DNA from: a virus
Direction: 5' to 3' (one strand)
Length of the DNA stretch: 23,121 bases
Virus record (IMG/VR): IMGVR_UViG_3300027573_000120
Span: 1-23,121 of that record
Shown here: positions 2 through 17,300 of the stretch, in pieces
Numbering within the stretch: position 1 is the stretch's first letter
Layout of the letters: every line of letters begins with the position of its first letter
Program-made: the position numbers and the translations under genes
The notes under the pieces: generated by a model
Databases searched by the model: none
What the model was told of the DNA's origin: nothing
The model's input: only the letters and a program-made list of their open reading frames with translations

Positions 2-163
2 CTGACGGCCAGCGAAGGTAACGTATCTCCTACGGGCCGTGCTCAGGGAGAAGACACAGCCACTACGGTGACATTGATAGGTGAAGAAGGGCTTCCTTAT
101 AGAATGTTGCTTAACACTGACTATGCGACTACGTTGGCTTTGGTACAGGCTTACGAATTCTAA
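2..163 (+). CDS. C-terminal fragment of an unrecognised, probably structural, phage protein (5' partial)
   Basis: The frame is open from the left edge and ends at TAA 161-163, giving 53 residues that end in LALVQAYEF. The fragment is rich in Thr, Gly and Ala with short hydrophobic stretches, as expected of a beta-rich protein. It lies directly before an intrinsic terminator and upstream of the glycosylation cassette and portal gene. That position suggests a virion protein such as a capsid or tail component, but no family motif is visible in this fragment, so the function is not assigned. The start lies outside the window. Confidence 0.7.
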   Translation: MTASEGNVSPTGRAQGEDTATTVTLIGEEGLPYRMLLNTDYATTLALVQAYEF

Positions 164-187
164 CCTAAACCGAACCTTTAAATAAAG

Positions 188-211
188 AAGCCTCTTCACC
201 GGGGCTTTTTT
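188..211 (+). terminator. Rho-independent terminator
   Basis: AAGCCTC (188-194) pairs with GGGGCTT (201-207), a 7-bp stem with one G-U pair and a 6-nt loop. It is followed by a T-run through 211. It begins 24 nt after the stop codon of the upstream partial gene and separates that transcript from the glycosylation cassette. Confidence 0.8.
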
Positions 212-212
212 G

Positions 213-242
213 TTGCTTAATTTAAATTAAAACTTAAATTTG
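213..242 (+). promoter_or_regulatory. Candidate Bacteroidota-type promoter for the glycosylation cassette
   Basis: TTG at 213-215 is followed after 19 nt by TAAATTTG at 235-242, a full match to the TAnnTTTG -7 box used by Bacteroidota sigma factors. It lies just after the terminator, where a new transcript would be expected. The box ends only 3 nt before the ATG at 246, so the mRNA would be leaderless for that gene or would begin inside it. The surrounding sequence is AT-rich, so a chance match is possible. Confidence 0.4.
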
Positions 243-245
243 GCT

Positions 246-419
246 ATGACGAAGTCAGAAATTAAGGCTGCCTTAAAGACCAGAGGCATCTTCGACACTA
301 ATTCCAAAGACCAACTCTGGCAGCAAGCCTTCCAATTATACTATCAGGAGACTAAACAGAAACTATCTATTAGCTGTGGTTCCTGCTTCAACCGCGTTCG
401 TAACTGGCTACAGGCATGA
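246..419 (+). CDS. Small hypothetical protein with C-terminal CGSC motif
   Basis: This is a 57-residue ORF from ATG 246 to TGA 417-419. The N-terminal part is charged and helical, and the protein ends with CGSCFNRVRNWLQA, a CxxC pair followed by an amphipathic helix. A single CxxC pair could bind metal only as a dimer or with a partner, so a zinc role is a guess. Its stop overlaps the ATG of the next gene in an ATGATGA context, which suggests translational coupling. It is the first gene of the cassette after the terminator. Function is unknown. Confidence 0.65.
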   Translation: MTKSEIKAALKTRGIFDTNSKDQLWQQAFQLYYQETKQKLSISCGSCFNRVRNWLQA

Positions 420-1051
420 TGCACCAGATTTACTACAAGCCTGAACAGAAGAATAAGCTATACCCATTTGCAACCCCGTACTATAACGAAGGGCTTACTA
501 TCTTTTTTGAGAACAAACCGATTGAAGCCATTGTAAAAGAGGCTACAGGGGAGAAAATAGCGGTAGCAAGCTGGAAACTATCGCAGAAATTAAGAAGACA
601 TCAGCCTTTAACTAATGAACGGTTAGAGGCTGACTATCAAGTGTTAAGTTTTACCAGGAATTCGGGGCGTCACAGGATGATGGCGATGTCTAACCAGTGG
701 CATCCGGGTTTTTTGAAGACAATTAGCCTCTTATGGGAGAAATTAGGGCTTAAAATGCCTGGAGAGGCGAAGGAACCGATCTATCAGAACCATTATTCCG
801 CGAAAAGTGACATTTACAAGCGTTATGTCAATGAATTCCTGTCGCCAGCGATGGAATTGATAGAAAAAGACGAAGAATTGCACAGTTTAATGGTTGTACC
901 GTCACGCTATGGGTCATTGTCAAGAGAAGCGGACCTGAAAAGCGTGAAAGAGAAATTGGGAATGACGGATTACCCGTTGTGTCCTTTCATTTTAGAACGT
1001 TGTCCTTCATTGTGGTTCACTATTCACCGGATTCCAGTCACTTACCTATGA
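416..1051 (+). CDS. Hypothetical protein of the glycosylation cassette, possibly a divergent glycosyltransferase
   Basis: A 211-residue protein. It starts IYYKPEQ and has a PYYNEGLTIFFEN segment near residue 21. A VASWKLSQK strand follows, then a C-terminal half with YQNHYSAKSDIYKRYVNEFL around residue 123. The last pattern, an Asn followed by a residue run like 'xxYxxYxxxFLxPAM', resembles the acceptor-side region of DUF4422-type GT-A glycosyltransferases, but no clear DxD motif is present, so the enzyme assignment is inference. The gene overlaps its upstream neighbour and shares an ATGA stop/start with the next gene (1048-1051). Two start codons (416 and 419) are possible. Confidence 0.6.
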   Translation: MMHQIYYKPEQKNKLYPFATPYYNEGLTIFFENKPIEAIVKEATGEKIAVASWKLSQKLRRHQPLTNERLEADYQVLSFTRNSGRHRMMAMSNQWHPGFLKTISLLWEKLGLKMPGEAKEPIYQNHYSAKSDIYKRYVNEFLSPAMELIEKDEELHSLMVVPSRYGSLSREADLKSVKEKLGMTDYPLCPFILERCPSLWFTIHRIPVTYL

Positions 1052-1692
1052 TTAGCATTTTACACCCATCACGCGGCCGTCCGGAGAAAGCGAAGCAGAC
1101 CGCTAACGAATGGGTGGACAATATTGGGGATGTCAAATGGGAATACATTATTTCATTAGACATCGATGATAATACGTTAACCAAATATCCACTGTGGCTT
1201 CTTCAGGAAAACGTTTTCACAATTGTTGGTGATAACACTTCAGTAGTGGAGGCCACAAACCAGGCGGCTAAAAAAGCTACAGGCGACATTCTGATTTATG
1301 TAACAGATGACTTCAAATGCTTTCCTAACTGGGGTAAAGTTATTGAAGACCGGATAGGCGATACTTCAAAACCTGTCATGTTAAAGGTGGATGATTGCTT
1401 GCAACAGTTCAGGGTAGGGGTTCTTACCATCCCAATAATGACGAGGGCACTTTATAAGATGTTGGGTTACTTCTTTCATCCGGAATACAAGTCAATGCAC
1501 GTAGATGTAGATTTATTCGAAACGTGTAAAAAATTAGGGGTAATAAAGTACTGTCCTGATTTAAAGTTTCCTCATCATCATGTTTCCAACGGTAAAGCTG
1601 AAATGGATGAAACCTATCGGAGAAGCACAGCGCATTGGAATCAGGGGTTAGAAGTAATAGCCAAACGCAGACGATTAGGGTTCCCGATATGA
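1048..1692 (+). CDS. GT-A fold glycosyltransferase (family 2-like)
   Basis: 214 residues from ATG 1048, chosen because this ATG overlaps the previous stop as ATGA, matching most of its neighbours. The frame is open upstream to 979, but that region lies inside the previous gene. The N-terminus MISILHPSRGRPEKA is typical of GT2 proteins. SLDIDD lies at 36-41, a GDNTSVVEATNQAA segment at 62-75, and YVTDDF (85-89) supplies the DxD-like metal and nucleotide-sugar site. HVDVD (151-155) and HHH (176-178) are further candidate catalytic or metal residues. Donor and acceptor are unknown; the setting suggests a virion or host-surface glycan. Confidence 0.8.
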   Translation: MISILHPSRGRPEKAKQTANEWVDNIGDVKWEYIISLDIDDNTLTKYPLWLLQENVFTIVGDNTSVVEATNQAAKKATGDILIYVTDDFKCFPNWGKVIEDRIGDTSKPVMLKVDDCLQQFRVGVLTIPIMTRALYKMLGYFFHPEYKSMHVDVDLFETCKKLGVIKYCPDLKFPHHHVSNGKAEMDETYRRSTAHWNQGLEVIAKRRRLGFPI

Positions 1693-2267
1693 CACTGGCC
1701 ATTTTAATATGTACCCTACCAGAACGCTTCGAAAAGTTGAAGCGGCTGAAGAACATTTTAGAACCCCAAGTGGAACGATTTAAAGACAGGGTTTCTATTC
1801 ACTACCATGACGGGGGGAGTTCGCTACCAACAGGAACAAAGCGTAATTTATTAATAGAAAACAGTTCATCAGATTACTTCTGCTTTGCCGATGACGATGA
1901 TTTAGTTTCCGCTTTCTATGTGTCTGAAATAGTCAAGGCAATGGACCAGAACCCTGATGTGATTACTTTCTGTGGATACATAACAACCAACGGAGCGAAC
2001 CGGGTAAACTGGGAGATTAAACTAGGAAATGAATATGTAGAACGGAACGGTATGTACTACCGATGGCCTAACCATTTAGCCGTAATGAAACGGCAGCTAG
2101 TCAGACACGTTAAGTTTCCGGCGGTGTGGCAGATGGAGGACTTCAGATGGTCAGAAGAAATAGCACGAAGGAAACTATTGAAGACTGAGGTACACATTCC
2201 GTTAGAATTGTACCACTATGACTGTATTCCAAAAACAAGAAGAGTAAATGAAAGAAGACTTCGATAA
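1689..2267 (+). CDS. GT-A fold glycosyltransferase (family 2)
   Basis: 192 residues from ATG 1689 (ATGA overlap with the upstream stop). The layout is classical: a first strand LAILICTLPERF (3-14), then GTKRNLLIENSSSDYFCFAD (49-68), the 'G-x-K-R-N' segment leading into DDDD (68-71), the metal-binding DxD region. An ED pair at 150-151 (MEDFRW) is the likely catalytic base region, and YHYD (175-178) is a late metal or acceptor site. It is shorter than most GT2 enzymes and has no membrane helix, so it is probably soluble. It overlaps the next gene by 20 nt. Confidence 0.85.
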   Translation: MTLAILICTLPERFEKLKRLKNILEPQVERFKDRVSIHYHDGGSSLPTGTKRNLLIENSSSDYFCFADDDDLVSAFYVSEIVKAMDQNPDVITFCGYITTNGANRVNWEIKLGNEYVERNGMYYRWPNHLAVMKRQLVRHVKFPAVWQMEDFRWSEEIARRKLLKTEVHIPLELYHYDCIPKTRRVNERRLR

Positions 2268-2862
2268 GCATTTTTTTCAAACGGCATGGGGTGAAGAGGG
2301 CTACTTAGAGCCATTCAGCTACGGTGTTGGTATTGAGACGGTGTGTGAAGTTGGTTTAATACCATTCCTGTCACCGCATAAGGACGCTTTAGAGATTGGT
2401 CCCGGGGGAGGGACGTTCACCCAACGGATGGTGGGCAACTTCAACCACTTGACGGTGATGGATGTCATCAAACAGCCCAAAGCATTTGAAGCGTTCGAAA
2501 ACTTCACTTATATCGAATTATCAGATAAGAACTTTGACTGTCCTGTCGATGCCTATTCAATAGACTTTTGTTTCTGTTATAATGTCTTTTGCCACTTATC
2601 AAATGAGGCTTTAAGTAAATACATGAGGGGCATAAACAAAGCATTGAAGTTTGGGGGTGACTTTGTGTTTATGCTTTCAAACTACCGCCATACCAGTCAA
2701 TACGGCAAAGGTTATTCACTCGGGGACTTCCTGCCAATGGGGCATTTCTATCAGGATCTACGGACGCTGGATTTGATTGTTGATTACAACCAATGGGAGG
2801 TAATTAATAATAATTTACTCCCAGACCACAGGGATATAGTATGTCACCTACGGAAAATATGA
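2248..2862 (+). CDS. Class I SAM-dependent methyltransferase
   Basis: 204 residues. ALEIGPGGGTF (47-57) is motif I, the SAM-binding glycine loop. VMDV (70-73) carries the acidic residue that would contact the SAM ribose. SIDFCFCYNVFCHL (104-117) occupies the motif IV position typical of small-molecule methyltransferases. The C-terminal half continues with a Methyltransf_11/25-like strand order. It overlaps the upstream glycosyltransferase gene by 20 nt and shares ATGA with the next one. Between two glycosyltransferase genes, O-methylation of a sugar is the simplest role, but the substrate is not visible in the sequence. Confidence 0.85.
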   Translation: MKEDFDKHFFQTAWGEEGYLEPFSYGVGIETVCEVGLIPFLSPHKDALEIGPGGGTFTQRMVGNFNHLTVMDVIKQPKAFEAFENFTYIELSDKNFDCPVDAYSIDFCFCYNVFCHLSNEALSKYMRGINKALKFGGDFVFMLSNYRHTSQYGKGYSLGDFLPMGHFYQDLRTLDLIVDYNQWEVINNNLLPDHRDIVCHLRKI

Positions 2863-3497
2863 TAGCCTCTATCCTCATCCCGACAATGCCTGGAAGATTG
2901 GAAAAGTTTACCAATCTGTTCAACGAACTACATCGGCAATTGGCCTATATGCAAACCTTTCACCCAACACTTGGACAGATTGAAATAGTAATAGACGATT
3001 CCAAACGGTTTTTAGAGGGTGGGCTTTCAATCGGAAAGAAACGGGAGGCGTTAGTCCAGCGGGCGGAAGGGAAATACTGCTGGTTTCTGGATGATGATGA
3101 GACTATAGCTCCGAACTACCTGGAAACATTGGTAAGACTTTGTTGCAGGAATGAGGACGTATGTACGTTCCGGGCCATAGGGAAATTTGATAACTATTGG
3201 GCGGTTTATGATATGTCGCTTTATAATACATGGAATGAACCATCCACACCTGATAAAACAGTAGTTCGCCAGCCGTGGCATCAATGTCCGGTTAAGACTA
3301 AATACGCAAAACTGTATCCATTTCCAGATACGTCCTATGGTGAGGATTGGGAATGGATGGAACAAGTCTTAAAGCATTGCAAGTCAGAGGCACATACAGA
3401 CGCTATTTTACTTCAATACAATCACGGTAAACATTCAGAAGCAGATAAAATAACTAACCATGTACAGTCAGAATCAGGAGGAGAAACACATTGTTGA
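2859..3497 (+). CDS. GT-A fold glycosyltransferase (family 2)
   Basis: 212 residues from ATG 2859. An in-frame start at 2841 exists, but 2859 gives the ATGA overlap seen in this cassette and begins directly at the first strand, MIASILIPTMPGRLEKF. The segment LSIGKKREALVQRAEGKYCW (56-75) precedes LDDDE (77-81), the DxD site. GEDWEWME (161-168) supplies the candidate catalytic base. YNHGKHSE (187-194) resembles the late His metal ligand. The architecture matches the protein at 1689-2267, so the two are probably paralogues with different donors or acceptors. Overlaps the next gene by 38 nt. Confidence 0.85.
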   Translation: MIASILIPTMPGRLEKFTNLFNELHRQLAYMQTFHPTLGQIEIVIDDSKRFLEGGLSIGKKREALVQRAEGKYCWFLDDDETIAPNYLETLVRLCCRNEDVCTFRAIGKFDNYWAVYDMSLYNTWNEPSTPDKTVVRQPWHQCPVKTKYAKLYPFPDTSYGEDWEWMEQVLKHCKSEAHTDAILLQYNHGKHSEADKITNHVQSESGGETHC

Positions 3498-4065
3498 ATA
3501 CTTCGGATATCATATAGGTACCTTCATCGATGTAGGTTGCAATGATTGCGAAACGTTTTCCAATACCAGGGCTTTAGCTTTGAGAGGATGGAAAGGGATA
3601 CTATTGGATTGCAGTCCAACGGCTATTGATCGCTGTAAGAAACTATACAACGGACACAAGGGCATTTATATTTACGACTATGCGATTTCATCTCACAATG
3701 GTAAAGCGATTCTACAGGAATCCGGGCCGTTATGTACTCCTTCCGATATTGGGTTGGTTAGTACTTTCCATCAACACGAGAAGGCCAGATTTGATAGGAA
3801 GGTTAAATATGAACCTATTGAAGTCAAAACGTTCAAATGGAAAACAGCATTAAACAGGTGGAAGATAAAAGAGTTTGACTGTGTTTCTTTAGACGTTGAA
3901 GGGGACGAGCTTAACATTCTACCTGATATGGACTTATCAAAGACACGATTAATTGTAATCGAATGGAACAGTAAGCCTGAACTAAAGACAGCCTATGAGA
4001 AATATTTGGACGGGTTCACGGTCATTTATACGTCAGCCGAAAACATCGTTTATGCCAGAATTTGA
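3460..4065 (+). CDS. FkbM-family methyltransferase
   Basis: 201 residues. The start MYSQNQEEKHIVEYF is the usual FkbM opening. TFIDVGCNDCETFSNT (21-36) is motif I. LLDCSPTAI (48-56) carries the ribose-binding acidic residue. SLDVEGDELNIL (143-154) is the diagnostic late motif, and VIEWN (166-170) follows. FkbM enzymes usually O-methylate hydroxyls on sugars or small molecules, which fits a glycan-decorating role here. This is one of three methyltransferases in the cassette, each of a different subtype, so they are not recent duplicates. Confidence 0.9.
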   Translation: MYSQNQEEKHIVEYFGYHIGTFIDVGCNDCETFSNTRALALRGWKGILLDCSPTAIDRCKKLYNGHKGIYIYDYAISSHNGKAILQESGPLCTPSDIGLVSTFHQHEKARFDRKVKYEPIEVKTFKWKTALNRWKIKEFDCVSLDVEGDELNILPDMDLSKTRLIVIEWNSKPELKTAYEKYLDGFTVIYTSAENIVYARI

Positions 4066-4630
4066 TATAAGTCTTTATGATGAAGAATTCTTTGAATGGC
4101 ACGTAACCCATGCCCGCAAATATTCCATGCGCACAATGGATTGGTATATCCAAAAATCCAAACCTGATTCAGTGGTAGACTTTGGCTGTGGGATTGGTAG
4201 CTATTTGGAAGCTGCCTTTGACTACGGCATTAAGATAAAAGGCTATGAGATTTCTTGGGAAGCCATTATACATACACCTGAACGCATACGGCCATACATT
4301 GAATACAGGGACTGCACCGAACCCATAAACGCAGGGGTATTCGACACGGTTATATCTTTTGAAACAGCGGAACATATTGAACCGGAAGGCACTAACCAAT
4401 TCATTTTGAACCTTGTAAACGCTACCGGCAAAACGTTACTATTCACAGCAGCCCCACCAGGTCAGGAAGGAACCGGCCACATTAACTGTCGTTATAGAGA
4501 CTTCTGGATGTTGGAGTTAAGTGACCTCCTGATTTACAATGATGTGTTAACAGGGGAGATTTCAGAAGCATGGGAGAAGTTAGGGGCCCCGTGGTACATC
4601 GTTAAAAATCTAATGGTATTCAGCCGATGA
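4052..4630 (+). CDS. Class I SAM-dependent methyltransferase (Methyltransf_23-like)
   Basis: 192 residues from ATG 4052, overlapping the FkbM gene by 14 nt. An upstream in-frame start at 3995 would place 19 extra residues deep in the FkbM gene and is not preferred. VVDFGCGIGSYLE (41-53) is motif I, YEIS (65-68) carries the acidic ribose contact, and ISFETAEHIEPE (101-112) is the typical post-motif of Methyltransf_23/11 proteins. TAAPPGQEGTGHIN (132-145) resembles the loop with a His near the active site. The likely role is glycan O-methylation, by context. Confidence 0.88.
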   Translation: MPEFDISLYDEEFFEWHVTHARKYSMRTMDWYIQKSKPDSVVDFGCGIGSYLEAAFDYGIKIKGYEISWEAIIHTPERIRPYIEYRDCTEPINAGVFDTVISFETAEHIEPEGTNQFILNLVNATGKTLLFTAAPPGQEGTGHINCRYRDFWMLELSDLLIYNDVLTGEISEAWEKLGAPWYIVKNLMVFSR

Positions 4631-5256
4631 CCATAGTGAACTTTTCAACAAAAGGCTACGGGATGCTACAACGTAGATTAAGAGCTTCACTGGGGGGTAC
4701 TAAACAAATAATGTTCAGCAATTACGGTCAGATAGACAGCCCTAGTCAACAGGAAAGCCCCTACCAGTTTAAAATACATTCTATTGAAAAAGCATTTCAA
4801 CACGATGACATCGTGCTATGGTGTGATTCATCCCTGTTTCTGGTTGGAAACCTACATATCATCGACAATCTAATAAAACAGGATGGATACTTTATGGAAG
4901 AGGCGGGGCATTGGGTGGGGTCATGGACGAATGAGTTTACAAAGGATTATTTCAAGATGACGGAAGAAGAACTAGCCGTCCCTGGTGGGATATTTATGTT
5001 TACCGCTGGGTGCTTAGGGTTGAACCGGCAGAACCCGACAGCTATGGAATGGTTCCGGCAGTGGAAGGAATCAGCATTAGCGGGGTGTTTTAAAGGTCAC
5101 TGGCACGACCATCGACACGACATGACCTGTGGATCTATCATAGCCCAACGGCTTGGGATGAAGTACCAACGCGGGGGTAAATACCTTGCTTATGTGGGGC
5201 CAGACTACCCCAAACCTGAGCCGGGGGTAGTATTTAAACTAAAGGGCTATTTATGA
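4627..5256 (+). CDS. Glycosyltransferase-like protein (GT-A type, uncharacterised)
   Basis: 209 residues starting at the ATGA overlap. SPYQFKIHSIEKAF (44-57) is followed by DDIVLWCDSSLFLVGN (60-75), which places CDSS where GT8-like and related GT-A enzymes carry their DxD. FTAGCLGLNRQN (125-136) and WHDHRHDMTCGSIIAQRLGM (159-178) resemble the acceptor-side segments of the same group, where a conserved His-Asp precedes a helix. No exact family is recognised, so the activity is inferred from fold-level similarity and position. It lies between a methyltransferase gene and a zinc-ribbon gene, with 4-nt overlaps on both sides. Confidence 0.65.
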   Translation: MTIVNFSTKGYGMLQRRLRASLGGTKQIMFSNYGQIDSPSQQESPYQFKIHSIEKAFQHDDIVLWCDSSLFLVGNLHIIDNLIKQDGYFMEEAGHWVGSWTNEFTKDYFKMTEEELAVPGGIFMFTAGCLGLNRQNPTAMEWFRQWKESALAGCFKGHWHDHRHDMTCGSIIAQRLGMKYQRGGKYLAYVGPDYPKPEPGVVFKLKGYL

Positions 5257-5447
5257 GAATACTACTGGCGTGGTGGTTCTGGATTACCAATAGGAATAAT
5301 GAACTAGCTCAGAAGCGTCTTAAAATCTGTAGTAGCTGTGAAAAAATGAAATGGGGGATATGCAAAGTTTGTGGATGTCCATTACAGACTAAAGCCAGAT
5401 TGTTAGATGAACCGTGTCCACATCCGGATGGAAATAAGTGGAATTAA
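5253..5447 (+). CDS. Small zinc-ribbon-like protein (DUF6171-like)
   Basis: 64 residues. KICSSCEKMKWGICKVCGCP (25-44) carries two Cys knuckles, CxxC and CxxCGC, and the protein closes with PCPHPDGNKW. This spacing matches small phage and bacterial zinc-ribbon proteins in which a final 'CP...KW' completes the site. The N-terminus MRILLAWWFWI is unusually Trp-rich and hydrophobic, perhaps membrane-associating. It shares ATGA with the upstream gene and is the last gene before an inverted repeat. Function is unknown. Confidence 0.75.
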   Translation: MRILLAWWFWITNRNNELAQKRLKICSSCEKMKWGICKVCGCPLQTKARLLDEPCPHPDGNKWN

Positions 5448-5477
5448 AAGGGGGCCAATCGCCAACAAGCCCCCCTT
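5448..5477. terminator. Inverted repeat, possible weak terminator at the end of the cassette
   Basis: AAGGGGG (5448-5454) pairs with CCCCCTT (5471-5477) across a 16-nt loop, immediately after the stop codon at 5445-5447. The T-run is poor (AATGTTTT follows), so termination may be incomplete. The next 67 nt up to the GTG start at 5545 are AT-rich and contain no recognisable gene. Confidence 0.45.
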
Positions 5478-5544
5478 AATGTTTTCGCCGGACTTATTGG
5501 TTTTACCGACGCGAAGTAAATATAACAATTTAAATGCCATTTAA

Positions 5545-6291
5545 GTGAAGTTATGCGCTATTTACAACGTATGGGCCGATTGGGATATTCTGGAATATTC
5601 ACTTAAAAACATAGAACCGTTAGTTGACGGGGTGATTATCGTCGGCTCCACCAAGAGCAACTTTGGGGAATATTTTCCAATCCCTGAGACTTTTAAAGAC
5701 AGGGTAGCCATACGTGAACCACAGTTTAAAAATGCAAGAGACTGCGAAACAGACAAACGTAATTTCGGGTTAGATTTAGCCAGGTGGGCAGGGTTCACAC
5801 ACTTCCTAACTATTGATGCGGACGAATTCTACGACCCTGAAAAATTCAACTTAGCTAAAAAATTAGTTGATGACACTGGACTTGTTGGGCTGGTTTGTAC
5901 CTGTACGACTTACTTCAAAAGCCCGACGTTAACGATTGGATTGGATGTGACGCTGGTTCCGTTCATCCACGAACTTACACCGACCATTAAGCACACGTTC
6001 AATAGAAACTATCCCTATGCGTGGAACGGGCCACAGATTCGGATAGACCCTACCCGAAGTTTGAATATCGATGATGGGGTGTTTATGGTTGACATAACCA
6101 TGCATCACATGTCGTGGGTACGTGCAGACATCAAACGGAAGATGCGGAACTCCACGGCAAAAGCCAACCTTGAACGGTCCACTATATTGCAAGATTATCA
6201 GCAAGCCAAAGAAGGATATTATTGCCAGTTTTATGGCAAGGTTCTCACACGCGTGGCGAACCGCTTCAATATCCCGGAGATATGGACGTAA
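5545..6291 (+). CDS. Glycosyltransferase (family 2-like, GT-A)
   Basis: 248 residues starting with GTG at 5545. No upstream in-frame ATG exists, and the reading begins directly at the first strand, MKLCAIYNVWADWDILEYSL. NARDCETDKRNFGLDLA (63-79) leads into LTIDADEFYDPE (88-99), a clear DxD site. MHHMSWVRADIKRKM (186-200) matches the late segment of this glycosyltransferase type. It is separated from the main cassette by an inverted repeat and overlaps the portal gene by 59 nt. It may therefore be transcribed with the head genes, and its acceptor could be a virion protein (inference). Confidence 0.85.
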   Translation: MKLCAIYNVWADWDILEYSLKNIEPLVDGVIIVGSTKSNFGEYFPIPETFKDRVAIREPQFKNARDCETDKRNFGLDLARWAGFTHFLTIDADEFYDPEKFNLAKKLVDDTGLVGLVCTCTTYFKSPTLTIGLDVTLVPFIHELTPTIKHTFNRNYPYAWNGPQIRIDPTRSLNIDDGVFMVDITMHHMSWVRADIKRKMRNSTAKANLERSTILQDYQQAKEGYYCQFYGKVLTRVANRFNIPEIWT

Positions 6292-7816
6292 AGAAAAGTC
6301 CGGCCAATATCTCCCCTTCGGGCCGGATGATATGTTCCCCAATAAATTAGCTTCCTTAGTTCAGGGTTCCCCCACGGCGACTGCGTGTTTATCTACTATG
6401 GTAGACTTCGTCACCGGAGAGGGATTCAACAAAGGGGTAGGACTTGAGAATCTTGTTATTAATAATCAGGGGTTAAAGTTCTTTCGGTACCATAGTATTT
6501 TATCAGATTCATTAGTTCATAACTGGGGGGTTGCTTCCATCGTCAAGTACAACCAGGCCGGGGAGATTACACAGATATTTGACATCCCTTTTGCCTACTG
6601 CCGACTGGGTAAACCCGATGATAGGGGCATAATTTCAAAGATACTTTACAACCCCTATTTCGGGACGGGCCTTTATAACAGGGCACAGACGGTAGAATAT
6701 GACGTTTACAATCCAACGGCGGCCACCGTTCAGATGGGAATGGAAAAGAAATGGAAAGGGCAGATAAACTGGCTCGGCATTAAAGACCAGAAACATCCGT
6801 TTTATCCTATTCCTGATTATTATTCCGCTTCGCACTGGATGAATGTGGAAAAGAACGCGGCGGTTTACTTCGATACCAATTTAGAGAACGGGTTTCTTCA
6901 GTCTATGGTATTAAAGATGGTCGGTGACCCTAATGACGTTTCCGGGAAGAAGGATGGAAACGACGAGGATATAACCAAAGGGAAACTTTTGGATGAAATG
7001 TTAACCAAAGACTTCTCAGGACCAAAGCGGGCGCATAAGATAATGACCCTATGGGGAAACAATAAAGAAGAATGGCCTGAACTGGCGGCCTTCCCCACGA
7101 ATGCTAATTCAGATTTATATAGGGTACAGGATGAACAGGCCACCCGCAAGATAAGCATAGCTACCAAAGTGCCCGCTATTTTAGCCAATGTAAACGACGC
7201 CAATAACTTCGGAGGGGAACAAATAAGACCAGCGGTGAAATTAATGCAACAACGGGCCAAAAGGCCACAGGATTTATTACTAGATTATTACTCGGATATG
7301 CTGAAACGGTTCATTAATCCGGTGACTGTTCCGATAAAAATAGTCCCTTATAACCCGTTCCCAGAATTAGAGAGCATAGATCCACAAGTGTGGGGCGTGA
7401 TGACGCTGGAAGAACAAAGGAAATGGACACAAGACCACACAGAAATAGAATTAACGCTTACAGCCCCCCAAACACCGGCTCCACCCGTCGAAAACAGGTT
7501 TGTGAACCTACATTTTGACTCTTACCCCGCCGGGGCGAAGGCAAATGCAAAACGGGCGGTAGAATGGGAGGAAAAAATGCAAACTTTCTGTCAACCGAAG
7601 AAAGGAAGGATGTTGACAGACCAGATTTTGAACGGGATTCCCCTGGGGCCGAAAGAAATCAAGCGTTTATCACGGTATTTAAGTAAGAATACGATACATA
7701 AAGACAAACCCTACGGCGAAAGTTGTGAGGCGGTGATGTATGACGCGTGGGGAGGGTCTGAAATGATGGTATGGGCTAACGAAAAAGTAAAAGAGTTAAA
7801 TGGCAAAGCTGATTAA
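6233..7816 (+). CDS. Phage portal protein with an extra C-terminal domain
   Basis: 527 residues from ATG 6233. The frame is open to 6122, but that part lies inside the glycosyltransferase gene. The N-terminal pattern (YLPFGPDDMFPNKLASLV, 26-43, then SPTATACLSTMVDFVTGEGF) is the usual opening of Bacteroidota phage portals. A middle region with YPIPDYYSA and a late KVPAILANVNDANNFGGEQI segment match the clip/stem part of the family. From about residue 417 a separate Lys-rich domain follows (FVNLHFDSYPAGAKANAKRA to AWGGSEMMVWANEKV). It resembles the short 'AKRALEW..RMxSFF..H..D' module found in some phage head morphogenesis proteins. Portals form the dodecameric DNA gate at one capsid vertex. 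Confidence 0.85.
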   Translation: MARFSHAWRTASISRRYGRKEKSGQYLPFGPDDMFPNKLASLVQGSPTATACLSTMVDFVTGEGFNKGVGLENLVINNQGLKFFRYHSILSDSLVHNWGVASIVKYNQAGEITQIFDIPFAYCRLGKPDDRGIISKILYNPYFGTGLYNRAQTVEYDVYNPTAATVQMGMEKKWKGQINWLGIKDQKHPFYPIPDYYSASHWMNVEKNAAVYFDTNLENGFLQSMVLKMVGDPNDVSGKKDGNDEDITKGKLLDEMLTKDFSGPKRAHKIMTLWGNNKEEWPELAAFPTNANSDLYRVQDEQATRKISIATKVPAILANVNDANNFGGEQIRPAVKLMQQRAKRPQDLLLDYYSDMLKRFINPVTVPIKIVPYNPFPELESIDPQVWGVMTLEEQRKWTQDHTEIELTLTAPQTPAPPVENRFVNLHFDSYPAGAKANAKRAVEWEEKMQTFCQPKKGRMLTDQILNGIPLGPKEIKRLSRYLSKNTIHKDKPYGESCEAVMYDAWGGSEMMVWANEKVKELNGKAD

Positions 7817-10767: not shown

Positions 10768-11634
10768 ATGCAAAATCTAAAAATAACAGAATTACCACCA
10801 GCATCATTACCTATAACTACGGGGGTGAAGTTTGAAGCTGTACAAGCGGGGATAAACGTTCAAGTGGACGCAGACAATATGCCCGGAAGTGGCGGTGGTG
10901 CATGGGGAACGATAACCGGTACACTGTCTGCCCAGACAGATCTACAGGCAGCGTTAGACCTTAAATCAGATAAAATCCCCAATATCAACACTGAAACCGT
11001 AGACTATACGCTAGTATTAACCGATGAGTTTGTTTCTATGGATAAGGCCACGGCTGTAAATTTAACAGTACCGCCGAACTCCAGTGTGGCATTCCCTCTG
11101 AATAAATATATTCCAGTACTTCAGGCGGGAATAGGAACTGTAAACTTTGTGGCTGGTGTAGGTGTAACGATTACAAGTTCTTCGGGAAACCTAACTACGC
11201 CAAGTCAAAATTCTATCGTAGGATTAATCCAAACAGGTATAGATGACTGGCAGTTGATAAACGGAAGTTTAGGAGACATCATAGACTGGTCTACAGGTAT
11301 TACTCCGGTGGGATGGGCTTCTTTTACAACAAAGCAAGCGTATTATATTGATGATGGCCGTCGTGTGTTTCTAACGGGCCAAATTTCAGGCACTGGGGAT
11401 TCGGGCACCACCGCCTCTTTCTCTTTACCTGTTGCGGCAAACTCTACCGTATATGCTACAGCCGCTGGGGTTTTTGTTTGTCAAACGGTGAGCAGTGGAA
11501 CCGTTGCTGCGGGTATCGCTGCCATATCTGGCGGTTCGGTAACATGCACAATATTCCCGACAGTAACAGGGTCTACAGGATGGAGCGCTAATAACGCTCG
11601 TCAAATAAGATTTTCATTCACCTATTTCAAATGA
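10768..11634 (+). CDS. Tail fibre protein with KITELP module
   Basis: 288 residues. The N-terminus (LKITELPPASLPITTGVKFE, then AVQAGINVQVDADNMPG) is the same short attachment module as in the protein at 8915-9751. A helical TLSAQTDLQAALDLKSDKIP joint, common in trimeric fibres, follows at about residue 53. Beta-rich domains come next, ending with GWASFTTKQAYYIDDGRRVF and a C-terminal beta sandwich (RQIRFSFTYFK). The shared N-terminus suggests the two fibres dock at equivalent sites or compete for one. Confidence 0.75.
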   Translation: MQNLKITELPPASLPITTGVKFEAVQAGINVQVDADNMPGSGGGAWGTITGTLSAQTDLQAALDLKSDKIPNINTETVDYTLVLTDEFVSMDKATAVNLTVPPNSSVAFPLNKYIPVLQAGIGTVNFVAGVGVTITSSSGNLTTPSQNSIVGLIQTGIDDWQLINGSLGDIIDWSTGITPVGWASFTTKQAYYIDDGRRVFLTGQISGTGDSGTTASFSLPVAANSTVYATAAGVFVCQTVSSGTVAAGIAAISGGSVTCTIFPTVTGSTGWSANNARQIRFSFTYFK

Positions 11635-12623
11635 TAACTACTTTATTGCCAACCACAAATCTGCTACGTGTAAATAATGCGTATACTGAATTTGAATACT
11701 TTTTGTACAGCTCAGTGGAGCCTTATGTCTCTAATCCTATATTAGTAGGAACCCCACCCAGGACAAATACGTGTCCAGCGGGGATTCTGGTTGACCCATT
11801 AGATGCTACTAAAAAATTATTTTGGAGGGGAGAGTTCGATAATACCGGGGGTTCTCTTAATTCACAAATAGGATTATTTGAAGGGTCAGACGTTGACGAT
11901 CCTTATGACCTTGGCACCCGGTACGGTACTGTCATTGCACCAGGAGCTACAGAAGATGTAAGGGGATGCCGTTTCGGAATGCCTGTATTCATAAGCGGCA
12001 CAGACGTTTGGTATTATTATGTTGGCTTAGACATCGGATATAATTGGACCATTTGCAGGGCTGTGTCTACCGACGGGGGGCGAACATATACAAAAATGGG
12101 CATTGTTCTCAGCCCAAACGGTACGGATGAATTTGGCGTATCTGGTCCGGCTATTTACAGAGAAGGTGGGACATGGTATATGGGGTATACTTGTTGGAGT
12201 GGCCCTGTAAATTCAGTGGGAATTACACACGATCCTGGTGCATCATCTGTGGGAATACGGTTGGCTACTTCTTCAGACGGTATAACATGGACTAAAGCTG
12301 GGGTTACTTTAGTGCCGTTGGTTTATGATCGTGTAGAAGATTCCCAATTTTATAAAATAGGTGACAAATATGTTTTACTGTATAATGTATACAAGGCTGC
12401 GGGGGCTACTACGTGGTCACTGTTTGTAAGTTCCAACACTGTACCAAATACAACATTTACGGTACAAAAACCTTTTAAATATGTATATGGAGAAGTCAGG
12501 GCAGTAGGTTTTCTTTTTACCTATAGTGACGGTTTTACATATGTGTATTACCAGCAGGAAGATCCACCTCCAGGATCTGGAATAGATAATATTTATGTTG
12601 CAAAACTAATACCTCCTAACTAA
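11631..12623 (+). CDS. Beta-propeller protein, GH43/GH32/sialidase-like
   Basis: 330 residues. Successive blades carry paired 'S-x-D-G-x-x-W/Y' turns: STDGGRTYTKMGIVL near 144 and SSDGITWTKAGVTL near 215. They lie with tight aromatic strands such as YREGGTWYMGYTCW and FYKIGDKYVLLYNVY. This is the layout of five-bladed glycoside hydrolase propellers (GH43, GH62, GH32/130). Three acidic residues of a GH43 site cannot be confirmed by eye, so it may bind rather than cleave glycan. No signal peptide or fibre N-terminus is present. It shares ATGA with the upstream fibre gene and abuts the next gene. Confidence 0.7.
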   Translation: MITTLLPTTNLLRVNNAYTEFEYFLYSSVEPYVSNPILVGTPPRTNTCPAGILVDPLDATKKLFWRGEFDNTGGSLNSQIGLFEGSDVDDPYDLGTRYGTVIAPGATEDVRGCRFGMPVFISGTDVWYYYVGLDIGYNWTICRAVSTDGGRTYTKMGIVLSPNGTDEFGVSGPAIYREGGTWYMGYTCWSGPVNSVGITHDPGASSVGIRLATSSDGITWTKAGVTLVPLVYDRVEDSQFYKIGDKYVLLYNVYKAAGATTWSLFVSSNTVPNTTFTVQKPFKYVYGEVRAVGFLFTYSDGFTYVYYQQEDPPPGSGIDNIYVAKLIPPN

Positions 12624-13849: not shown

Positions 13850-14134
13850 ATGGCAACTAAGAAAGCAGTACTGGAGGATGATGATTACGAACCCGCCGTA
13901 GTAATAGGAATGATATTGGCCGCACGAACCATCGCACTGGATTTGGATTCCCGTAAACGACAGTTTGCCAGAACTGTGTTAACTAATCCGGTGGACTATA
14001 TTCCGATATTCAAGTATCTCATCATCGTAAATTTGGATACCACGAACTGGGGAGCAATGACAGAGCCGCAGAAAATAGCAGCGACAGAAATAGAAGCCTA
14101 TAACGTGTTCAGTCAGGCAGGAAACATAATATGA
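13850..14134 (+). CDS. Hypothetical protein
   Basis: 94 residues from ATG 13850, preceded by the stop of the holin-like gene one base earlier. It starts with a charged segment (MATKKAVLEDDDYEPA), then shows amphipathic helices (AARTIALDLDSRKRQFART, IEAYNVFSQAG). There is no signal peptide, TM segment or known motif. The next gene begins at the ATGA overlap 14131-14134, so it is in the lysis/tailspike operon. Function is unknown. Confidence 0.6.
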   Translation: MATKKAVLEDDDYEPAVVIGMILAARTIALDLDSRKRQFARTVLTNPVDYIPIFKYLIIVNLDTTNWGAMTEPQKIAATEIEAYNVFSQAGNII

Positions 14135-15957
14135 AAATATTACTCTTATTACTGCTACCATTTTTTGCATTCGCGCAGGACTCCCTGCACATCGAAGAAC
14201 TCGGGGTATATGTGAAGACCACGGAAACGCCTCCACCGATACCTGTGGATTCCTTCCTGACGATTGATAATGCTGTGAAGGGTATTCAAGGCTATCAACA
14301 CAACTATACAGGAACATGGAGCGAAGGAACCAGCGCCAATTGGTATGCCAGTACATTAACCTATACCACCAATGGCGCTGTTACCTTCCGATTCAATGGA
14401 ACCAAAATAGAGTGGTACACGGAGAAGGGTCCGACTCATGGTAAAGTAGGGGTAACTGTAGATACTTCACCAGAAGTCATCATCGACCTGTATGCCGCTG
14501 CGTTCGCTCAGAAAGTGAAAGTCTTCGAACGTGTCACCACGCAGGACATTCACACGATCAAGCTGCGATCTACAGGCACGAAGAATCCTGCATCCAGCAA
14601 CACGTATTTATTAACGGACTTCTTCAAGATCAAGGATCCGGGGTTCGTGCCTGATACGGTTCCTTCTATTCCTCCACCCATCACTGGAGATATTATTGTA
14701 TCACCAGGGCAAAGTATCAAGGCTGCTGTAGAGTCAGCTACATCTGGTAAGATCGTAAGTCTGTTGGAGGGAACTTATAACGAGAATCAATTCAACGTAC
14801 CGCAGGGTGTATCGCTGGTCGGTGCTGGCAAACTCAAAACTATAATCAACTTTACCGGAAGTATGCCACAGCAAAGTGAGAACGCGATGATCCAGCTTAA
14901 AGGGGGGTCACTGGTACGTATTATGCCGATGACAATGGGTATCACTGGCATCATGTTATTGGTTCTCTTATGGTTAATAGCCAACTACGGACCGTGGACA
15001 TCTAAAATAAAGCTGATTATCACCGCTGTTCTGGTTGTTATCCTTATCGGAATTATCATCTACATCGTTAATGCCCCTCAAGCCTCCCAACAGGCAGCGG
15101 GTAATCAAACGATCTCAGGCTTTACTATCAATGGTAAGTTTTTATGCAACGGCGGGATAATAGTAGACGGCAGGGATAATGTGAAAATACTGGATGTTAA
15201 AGTTCAGGAGACAACCTACTTCGGGGCATGGTTAAAGAACACCACAGGCTCCGAGTTTGCCAATAACGAGTTATTTAATTCATCGTGGGCTTCTGTAGGA
15301 TGGGTCACGGGCGAACTTTGTGTGCACAACATTACTAATACCATCATCCATCACAACTTTTTTAAGACTACGCGCAACGATAAAGGATACGGCATTAAAG
15401 GTCTATGGCCTGATGGTACAGTTACCAACTCAAAGTTCTATAATAACAAGTTTGAGCTAACACACTTTTCTCTTTGGAACAACGGGTCAGCGCCTAACAT
15501 AGATATCGAATTACACAATACGTTCTACAATGGTATAGAGATTTACGAGAATGACTTTTCAGTGATGGGCTTATCATTAGCATCGCATAGACCAACTAAA
15601 GGCGGCAGGACCATTGTACGCAACAATCGTTTTGTATGGTGTTCAACCGCTCACATTGAACTGGTCTGCTCAAACATAACCATTGGCCCGGGTAACGTGT
15701 TCTCAGGCGCGCCGATGCTGACAGCTAACTTCCAGCCCAATGGAAAGTGGACTGATATTATCGTAACCGGTAACACCTTCACCAGTAACGGAGCAAATCC
15801 AAGCTGGGGAGGAACGCATTTGATTGGAGCTAATGGCATGGATATGACCATTACGAACAACACCTACAATAATTTAGGGGGGTATACCTTTGTCAAGCAT
15901 ATGGGAGCGCCTGCTAATAGTGTGATAGTGGACACAGGAAACACCAAGAACCAATGA
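14131..15957 (+). CDS. Exported parallel beta-helix protein with internal two-TM insertion
   Basis: 608 residues. The N-terminus [16 protein letters not shown] is a Sec signal peptide with cleavage likely near residue 15-16. Residues about 45-168 form a jelly-roll carbohydrate-binding-like domain ([19 protein letters not shown], 87-104). From about residue 186 a parallel beta-helix of the pectate-lyase type begins ([19 protein letters not shown]). It is broken at 263-323 by a hydrophobic hairpin with two TM segments, then resumes at [14 protein letters not shown] (324-337) and continues to the end with repeated 'NxFxxN' turns. A signal peptide is unusual for a virion tailspike, since virion proteins assemble in the cytoplasm; the protein may instead act in the host envelope. 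Shares ATGA with the tailspike gene downstream. Confidence 0.8.
14917..15099 (+). other. In-frame two-TM holin-like insertion inside the beta-helix gene
   Basis: Codons 263-323 of the beta-helix gene. TM1 is [19 protein letters not shown] (269-287), the loop is PWTSKIK, and TM2 is [19 protein letters not shown] (295-313), followed by APQASQQAA. Both flanks read as normal solenoid rungs (MIQLKGG before, NQTISGFTI after). Clustered ATG codons at 14923, 14929 and 14935 mark a possible internal start, but no stop follows until 15957. The segment resembles the separate small proteins at 13648-13848 and 20006-20191. No target-site duplication is obvious at the edges. Confidence 0.65.
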
Positions 15958-17300
15958 ATATAACACTGGACGAAGATGTAGCCGCTGGGAAGTATTTATT
16001 AGTACCAGAGGCTGAAATTCCTGAACCCTGCGAATGTCCTCCGGGACCACAGGGTGAACCAGGGCCAATAGGACCACAGGGACCAATCGGGTTAACCGGG
16101 CCGAAAGGAGACAAGGGAGATACCGGAGCGACAGGCCCAATCGGACCACAAGGTCCGGCAGGCGGTGGAACAGGTGGAGGACTGAAGGGATGGTTTGACA
16201 TCACTGCATACGGAGCGGTGCGAGATTCCACAACAGACTGCACCGCAGCAATTCAAGCCGCTATCGATGACTGTATAAGAAATAAAGGAACATTATATAT
16301 CCCAAGTGATGATGGACACAACTACTATAGAATAAACAATACTTTAAATATTGTAGCCAGTGCCTCTTATCCAGAAGACCAGATACACATGAACGTGTAT
16401 GGTGAAGGCCATCTGGCCCGTCAGATTGTTTATCATGGTCCAAGTAATAGCTGTGCAGTAAAGATACTAGGGTTGAAGGGCGGTACTATACAGAATTTTA
16501 AAGTAAGGTTTGCGGATGGTGTAACAAACTGCGCTGTTTTTGAAGTTGGTACAAATGCTTATGCCGGTTCCTGTGGCAGTTTTACTTTTCAGGATTGTGT
16601 GGCTGGATTGCATACGGGTGAAAATAATGTCGGATGGAGACTGGGAGCAGTAGAAGGTAGTGGTGCTGATGTTTCAAATATCACATGGGTCAACTGTCTG
16701 GTAAATGGGGGACGAATACACGGTTATGCGGGACAATACGGATGGCATTGTACCGGTGGTAATTCATTCCAGTTTACGTGGATAGGTGGAGGGGCATCCT
16801 ACTGTTATAATGCTGTGAGAATATCGATGGGTGGCTCATTATATTTTTATGGTGTTGGGGGTTCGGGTAACACCGTGGACTTCCAATTGAATTATGTAAG
16901 TTCCCTTACAATAGATGGAAACAGGTGGGAAAATGGTAAGAAGTTTCTACACGCAGCCGGACAGGAGGGTCATTCAACAGTAATGATTTCAAATTCTTCA
17001 CTTGGAGCGTATAATCCCGAAGATGGTTATGTGATCCTGGTTGAACAGCCAGGAACTATTATCCTGGATGCTTTCGGAGTTTACAAGGATGGCGGCGGAA
17101 TGTATACTGGCCCCGTTGTTCATTTAGCCAGCACATGGCACATTGGCAATTTCCATTGGAGAGGGGGCTATGTACAATCTACATCTTCCACACTTGTAAA
17201 AGTTCAGAATGCTGCCAATTGGAAACAACGGGTAACGACAGTTGGGAAGATGGACGCAAATTATAAAACACCTGATTACTTCCCTGATGTAACGACATGA
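15954..17300 (+). CDS. Tailspike with collagen-like repeat and pectate-lyase-fold domain
   Basis: 448 residues. Residues 1-30 are an acidic segment with a CEC motif, residues 31-69 are thirteen Gly-X-Y triplets, and a Gly-rich hinge (GGGTGGG) leads to [20 protein letters not shown] (80-99), the standard opening of a Pectate_lyase_3-type beta-helix domain. A long solenoid follows. No signal peptide is present, in contrast with the upstream protein, so this one is the better candidate for the virion tailspike. Collagen-like stretches in phages form trimeric stalks. It shares ATGA with both neighbours. Depolymerase activity is likely from the fold, but catalytic residues are not assigned. Confidence 0.85.
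16044..16160 (+). repeat. Collagen-like Gly-X-Y repeat, 13 triplets
   Basis: The codons read [18 protein letters not shown], then [21 protein letters not shown] without interruption. The Pro content and GDKGDT units favour a triple helix even without hydroxyproline. Repeats of this kind often change length between related phages. Confidence 0.9.

Follow-up and report, generated by a model that had tools for sequence, protein, structure and literature searches.

The DNA analysed here, called the window below, is a linear stretch of 23,121 bp from an uncultured virus and covers positions 1 to 23,121 of the IMG/VR record IMGVR_UViG_3300027573_000120. Its first third carries the following features, with genes designated by letters.

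2..163, + strand: Z, C-terminal fragment of a head protein that relatives encode after the major capsid gene (~180 aa in them); counted as structural backbone by similarity to these
181..214, + strand: terminator-like hairpin with a T tract; weak, as such sites in the region are not above shuffles
246..419, + strand: A, Cys-containing protein of 57 aa, present in most relatives; probable structural-backbone gene, not a glycan gene
416..1051, + strand: B, protein of no known family and no demonstrable glycosyltransferase; probably backbone (no family hits; occurs without a glycosyltransferase in two relatives)
1048..1692, + strand: C, GT2-like glycosyltransferase, hypervariable allele (phrog_14945, 6e-20)
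1689..2267, + strand: D, GT2 glycosyltransferase with a DDD motif (Pfam GT2, 29.8 bits; phrog_14775)
2248..2862, + strand: E, class I SAM methyltransferase (Pfam Methyltransf_11); often missing in relatives, or joined or replaced by a TylF-type methyltransferase
2859..3497, + strand: F, GT2 glycosyltransferase with a DDD motif (Pfam GT2, 32.8 bits; phrog_8858); its start codon (ATG at 2859) overlaps the stop codon of E
3460..4065, + strand: G, FkbM-type methyltransferase (FkbM/Methyltransf_21; PF05050, 39.9 bits, cut-off 22.7), the most constant methyltransferase of the family
4052..4630, + strand: H, class I SAM methyltransferase (Pfam Methyltransf_23/11), optional
4627..5256, + strand: I, predicted GT6-like GT-A glycosyltransferase by fold (AlphaFold2 model against GT6 structures)
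5253..5447, + strand: J, small CxxC protein, DUF6171 (PF19668, 31.2 bits; phrog_13558)
5545..6291, + strand: K, GT-A-like glycosyltransferase with DADE (family alignment), overlapping the portal gene
6233..7816, + strand: L, portal protein, the right border of the slot (phrog_11226, 5e-46)

Genes A to J (246-5447) overlap serially in the list of open reading frames of the window. Six junctions are 4-nt ATGA overlaps (A-B, B-C, C-D, E-F, H-I and I-J), and three overlaps are longer (D-E, 20 nt; F-G, 38 nt; G-H, 14 nt). A 97-nt gap separates J from K, whose end lies 59 nt inside the portal gene. The block from C to K with its overlaps is a single overlapping operon. A scan of the region for promoters and terminators gave no excess over shuffled sequences, and the G+C content of the cassette did not differ clearly from that of the remainder of the window.

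An earlier note on this DNA had drawn a glycan block at 246-6291. The open reading frames are as it described and the glycosyltransferases and methyltransferases are real, but the first two genes look structural. A resembles, by eye, the N-terminus of the gene at the same place in Bacteroides phage BS-TP3. B, listed in that note as an uncertain glycosyltransferase-like protein, was rejected as a glycosyltransferase: it has no significant match in Pfam, PHROG or PDB and none in public phage records or bacterial genome contigs, its mostly helical model is unreliable (pLDDT 48), and two relatives (contigs L107 and L170) have B although no glycosyltransferase was detected in them. Because A and B seem to belong to the structural backbone and B is without glycosyltransferase support, we moved the start of the cassette to 1048. 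The cassette proper is thus 1048-6291, with five GT-A-type glycosyltransferases (C, D, F, K and I) and three unlike methyltransferases (E, G and H).

D and F are above the Pfam GT2 (PF00535) cut-off of 23.3 bits. C is below it (18.5 bits), and K has no match of its own. In the K family, weak GT2 matches were obtained for 8 of 11 members (best 4e-4), and DADE is invariant across all aligned members. Distant relatives of K occur in Lak phages. Large-phage contigs of 151-364 kb (L062-L066) also have a distant K relative, with no such capsid-portal slot seen nearby. I has no sequence family in Pfam or PHROG and no sequence-level GT6 match. Its AlphaFold2 model, built with 11 relatives, has pLDDT 77 and pTM 0.81, and aligns with BoGT6a (4ayj) over 187 residues (Z 12.8, rmsd 3.3, 12% identity). 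A Foldseek search with this model returned glycosyltransferases from several GT-A families, and therefore I is best labelled "GT-A, GT6-like" rather than "GT6". The earlier note had counted at least four GT-A enzymes; C, D, F and K, together with I by its predicted fold, make five.

The three methyltransferases are as unlike as had been described, namely Methyltransf_11 (E), FkbM (G) and Methyltransf_23 (H). Comparison of G, E and H with solved structures gave nothing informative; E and H are generic enzymes without a close solved relative. G is present in nearly all cassettes of the window's type, and E is missing from many relatives. Where E is missing, D is frequently followed by a gene of the TylF family (PF05711, 1e-31), and one contig (L041) has both E and TylF. 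In the PDB, the TylF protein matches the sugar O-methyltransferases NovP (2e-17) and the mycinamicin III 3''-O-methyltransferase MycF (3e-16).

Relatives of the window were collected by a portal search, which gave 17 loci, and by portal and major capsid profile searches independent of the cassette, which added many more. Their open reading frames were ordered by family profiles, and the contigs were de-duplicated by hand by name, which left 37 IMG/VR contigs that run from the major capsid gene to the portal gene. The slot between these two genes holds a glycan-type cassette in 31 of the 37, one of which (L098) was included by eye, with glycosyltransferase-like genes not tested against Pfam. 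In the 31 the capsid gene is followed by Z, usually A, B, a series of glycosyltransferases and methyltransferases and, often, J and K before the portal. A full-length Z gene lies directly after the major capsid gene in L008, L014, L018 and most relatives, and the pieces of Z in relatives are 100% or 68-71% identical. The earlier note had proposed a search for the same gene order in related phages; the block was found ordered in one slot rather than scattered, with 391 of 391 cassette-family matches inside the slot and none in the flanking DNA examined, a count in which some contigs enter through more than one overlapping locus. A GT2 search gave matches in 10/10 records of the phage group. The conserved feature is the slot, rather than one fixed gene set.

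Such a slot might be a general cargo site that gathers unrelated accessory genes, in which case the glycan genes would act separately without a common product. Six of the 37 contigs have no glycosyltransferases, as far as seen. Two of them have only B (L107) or B and a Methyltransf_24 gene (L170) in the slot. The other four (L110, L112, L113 and L116) have it filled with other, mostly reverse-strand genes, as would be expected of a cargo site. Several relatives also have homing-endonuclease genes of the HNH and NUMOD4 types within the cassette, and L028 has an IS1595 transposase, which point the same way. However, glycan-type genes occupy the slot in 31 of 37 contigs, recur in order, overlap, and are under purifying selection (dN/dS, where computable, 0 to 0.19). 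As the cassette is kept across tens of relatives under such selection, it is not there by chance, and we regard the cargo-site explanation as quite improbable.

The reverse-strand filling includes a fibre-like protein of 489-669 aa (L110, 4425-7825; L113, 4905-7563; also L112 and L116). In Bacteroides phage BS-TP3 no cassette was found at the capsid-portal site.

The content of the slot also varies with respect to sugar donors. No nucleotide-sugar biosynthesis gene was found in the window, in agreement with the suggestion of the earlier note that donors are supplied by the host, but nucleotide-sugar dehydratase or epimerase genes are added in nine relatives, so that supply by the host alone does not hold for the family. 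Of these relatives, L037, L038 and L158 carry in the slot a cupin gene along with one for a GDP-mannose 4,6-dehydratase; a weaker epimerase/dehydratase match was obtained in the slot of a more distant set (L104, L105, L108, L159, L163 and L167). Two contigs of this set, L104 and L105, carry GT11, GT2, GT25, GT47-like, Glyco_tranf_2_4, Methyltransf_24 and FkbM-like genes. The O-methylated oligosaccharide proposed earlier is favoured by the relatives, in which TylF enzymes stand at or beside the position of E and GDP-mannose dehydratase genes lie in the same operon; both strengthen the case for O-methylation of a glycan.

Among close relatives, single genes differ far more than their surroundings. 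The window, L003, L004 and L015 have ~87-93% nucleotide identity over most genes, whereas for C the figure falls to 66-71%, across 41% of its length. The C proteins of close relatives are 49-59% identical to that of the window, and those of L003 and L004 are 76% identical to each other. G falls into two groups, the window with L004 (96%) and L003 with L015 (99%), with 78-79% protein identity across the groups. I is divergent in L003 only (70-72%), and H is most divergent in L015 (71-74%). These conflicting groupings of C, G, H and I are what gene-by-gene exchange predicts, and they suggest that such exchange takes place. The homing endonucleases may drive it.

Two rearrangements were also seen at the slot. 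B and a shortened C of L017 (3707-4730) run opposite to the other cassette genes. L002, L004 and L016 have an opposite-strand HNH-type gene between K and the portal, and the window is without it.

We compared the cassette with known phage systems. In profile searches D matches gp108 of Che8 (5e-31), gp15 of LittleE (8e-28) and pas33 of phiAsp2 (7e-29). F also matches all three (Che8 gp108 at 1e-25), and C matches the N-terminal part of phiAsp2 pas34 (6e-16). Che8 gp108 is a glycosyltransferase-methyltransferase fusion. D and F are homologous to its glycosyltransferase half, and its second half is similar to the TylF protein encoded after D in L008 (28% over 155 aa, 5e-10). Thus, a pair of adjacent genes in this phage group corresponds to one fused protein in Che8. 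No public phage protein similar to G (FkbM), I or B was found at the thresholds used.

According to PMC12363180, virion proteins of Che8, Corndog and Myrna are glycosylated, and Che8 gp110 and Corndog gp38 are essential to capsid glycosylation. In cluster O phages, three glycosyltransferases paired with an O-methyltransferase are said, in PMC11600133, to modify the capsid and the tail tube. The cassette shares with Che8 and with cluster O phages such as Corndog the tandem glycosyltransferases and the adjacent or fused methyltransferase. It differs in that five glycosyltransferases and three methyltransferases are separate genes, FkbM and GT6-like enzymes are added, and another host group is suggested. 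The genes of Che8 lie near the genome end, unlike the slot between capsid and portal. No cassette profile, nor any of the relatives' open reading frames searched, gave a significant match to the Che8 glycosyltransferase gp110; therefore we describe the cassette as working like the Che8/Corndog system and do not file it as a member.

A similar place is seen in LittleE, an Omegavirus mycobacteriophage with a glycosyltransferase cassette between the major head protein and the head-tail connector. LittleE gp15 and gp17 are homologous to adjacent genes of relative L114. The gene set is shared only in part, however, and no FkbM gene is annotated in LittleE. In Actinoplanes phage phiAsp2, pas33-35 likewise place a D-like glycosyltransferase beside a C-like one joined to a methyltransferase, but these are three genes only, located after the tail genes.

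That the block assembles a glycan is well supported, and very probably this glycan is methylated. We propose that the block is probably a late-expressed operon whose enzymes assemble, step by step in the cytoplasm, an O-methylated glycan on virion proteins. Because the genes overlap and run into the portal gene, the cassette proteins are probably made with the head proteins, so that the operon would be expressed late. Soluble glycosyltransferases working in the cytoplasm would add sugars singly, using nucleotide-sugar donors, and particular hydroxyls would be O-methylated by the methyltransferases. As the product, a capsid or tail protein of the virion would bear a short O-methylated oligosaccharide. 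What we infer in this proposal is which sugars are used, that the methyl groups are O-linked and how the phage benefits. The virion acceptor already suggested in the earlier note is consistent with the homology to Che8 gp108 and with the place in a head-gene operon, but the location in a structural operon is evidence on timing and not on the acceptor.

The acceptor could also lie outside the virion. Surface-polysaccharide loci typically contain glycosyltransferase and FkbM genes, so the cassette might during infection alter a glycan of the host surface (LPS or capsule) and thereby shield the progeny or exclude other phages. Phage-encoded glycosyltransferases able to change the host serotype are discussed in PMC10955285. 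We searched for the genes of such systems in ten records, nine of 41-45 kb and the window, which may be incomplete contigs. The GtrA flippase was found in 0/10, and neither an initiating sugar-phosphate transferase (Bac_transf) nor an integrase was found in any of the ten. The block proteins appear soluble, with no transmembrane-like segment in any of them (highest 19-residue hydropathy 1.36), and the genes are embedded in a head-gene operon. We consider this main rival unlikely.

Glucosylation of DNA is another activity known for phage glycosyltransferases, and F has a weak partial match to phrog_842 (0.041). The enzymes would then glycosylate modified bases of the phage DNA. A gene of the thymidylate-synthase/dCMP-hydroxymethylase family was present in 0/10 of the same, possibly incomplete, records. 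The glycosyltransferase families and the TylF and FkbM methyltransferases indicate sugar chains, and the cassette is placed with head genes, not with DNA metabolism. This explanation is very improbable. Taken together, the lack of integrase, GtrA, Bac_transf and thymidylate-synthase-family genes in these records and of transmembrane stretches in the block proteins weighs against both lysogenic serotype conversion and DNA glucosylation.

Three other genes of the window deserve mention. A tail protein (15954-17300) has collagen-like Gly-Pro-x repeats near its N-terminus and may, by analogy, be a glycan acceptor. Among the tail genes, 11631-12623 has weak similarity to GH130 and GH43, both below the cut-off, and possibly encodes a glycan-cleaving or glycan-binding tail part. 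A tail-spike-like protein of 608 aa (14131-15957) has two transmembrane-segment-like stretches (13 and 19 residues) mid-protein, which is unusual there.

The earlier note treated the virus as a Bacteroidota phage. Such a host is plausible only: relatives of the portal protein are found in Bacteroides, Parabacteroides, Cellulophaga and Tenacibaculum phages at 21-26% identity, and two scans of bacterial genomes with B or the portal gave no match.

Returning to the glycan-building function, we tentatively suggest, as a possible but somewhat doubtful extension, that a large group of uncultured phages has in this slot a "glycotype" locus. Both entire cassettes and individual alleles would be swapped, helped by homing endonucleases, and phages with ~90% DNA identity would carry different methylated glycans, as bacteria vary their O-antigens. 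Pressure from bacterial defences or predators, rather than from animal antibodies, may lie behind this diversity. The published cases of virion glycosylation by phage-encoded enzymes that we found concern actinobacteriophages, with an effect on antibody recognition. If the suggestion is true, a conserved and swappable glycan locus in environmental phages with another suggested host would mean that phage sugar coats are more widely spread and are selected independently of animal immunity. Relatives distinguished by a single methyltransferase, or by extra sugar-biosynthesis genes, would then offer a testable gene-to-glycan map.
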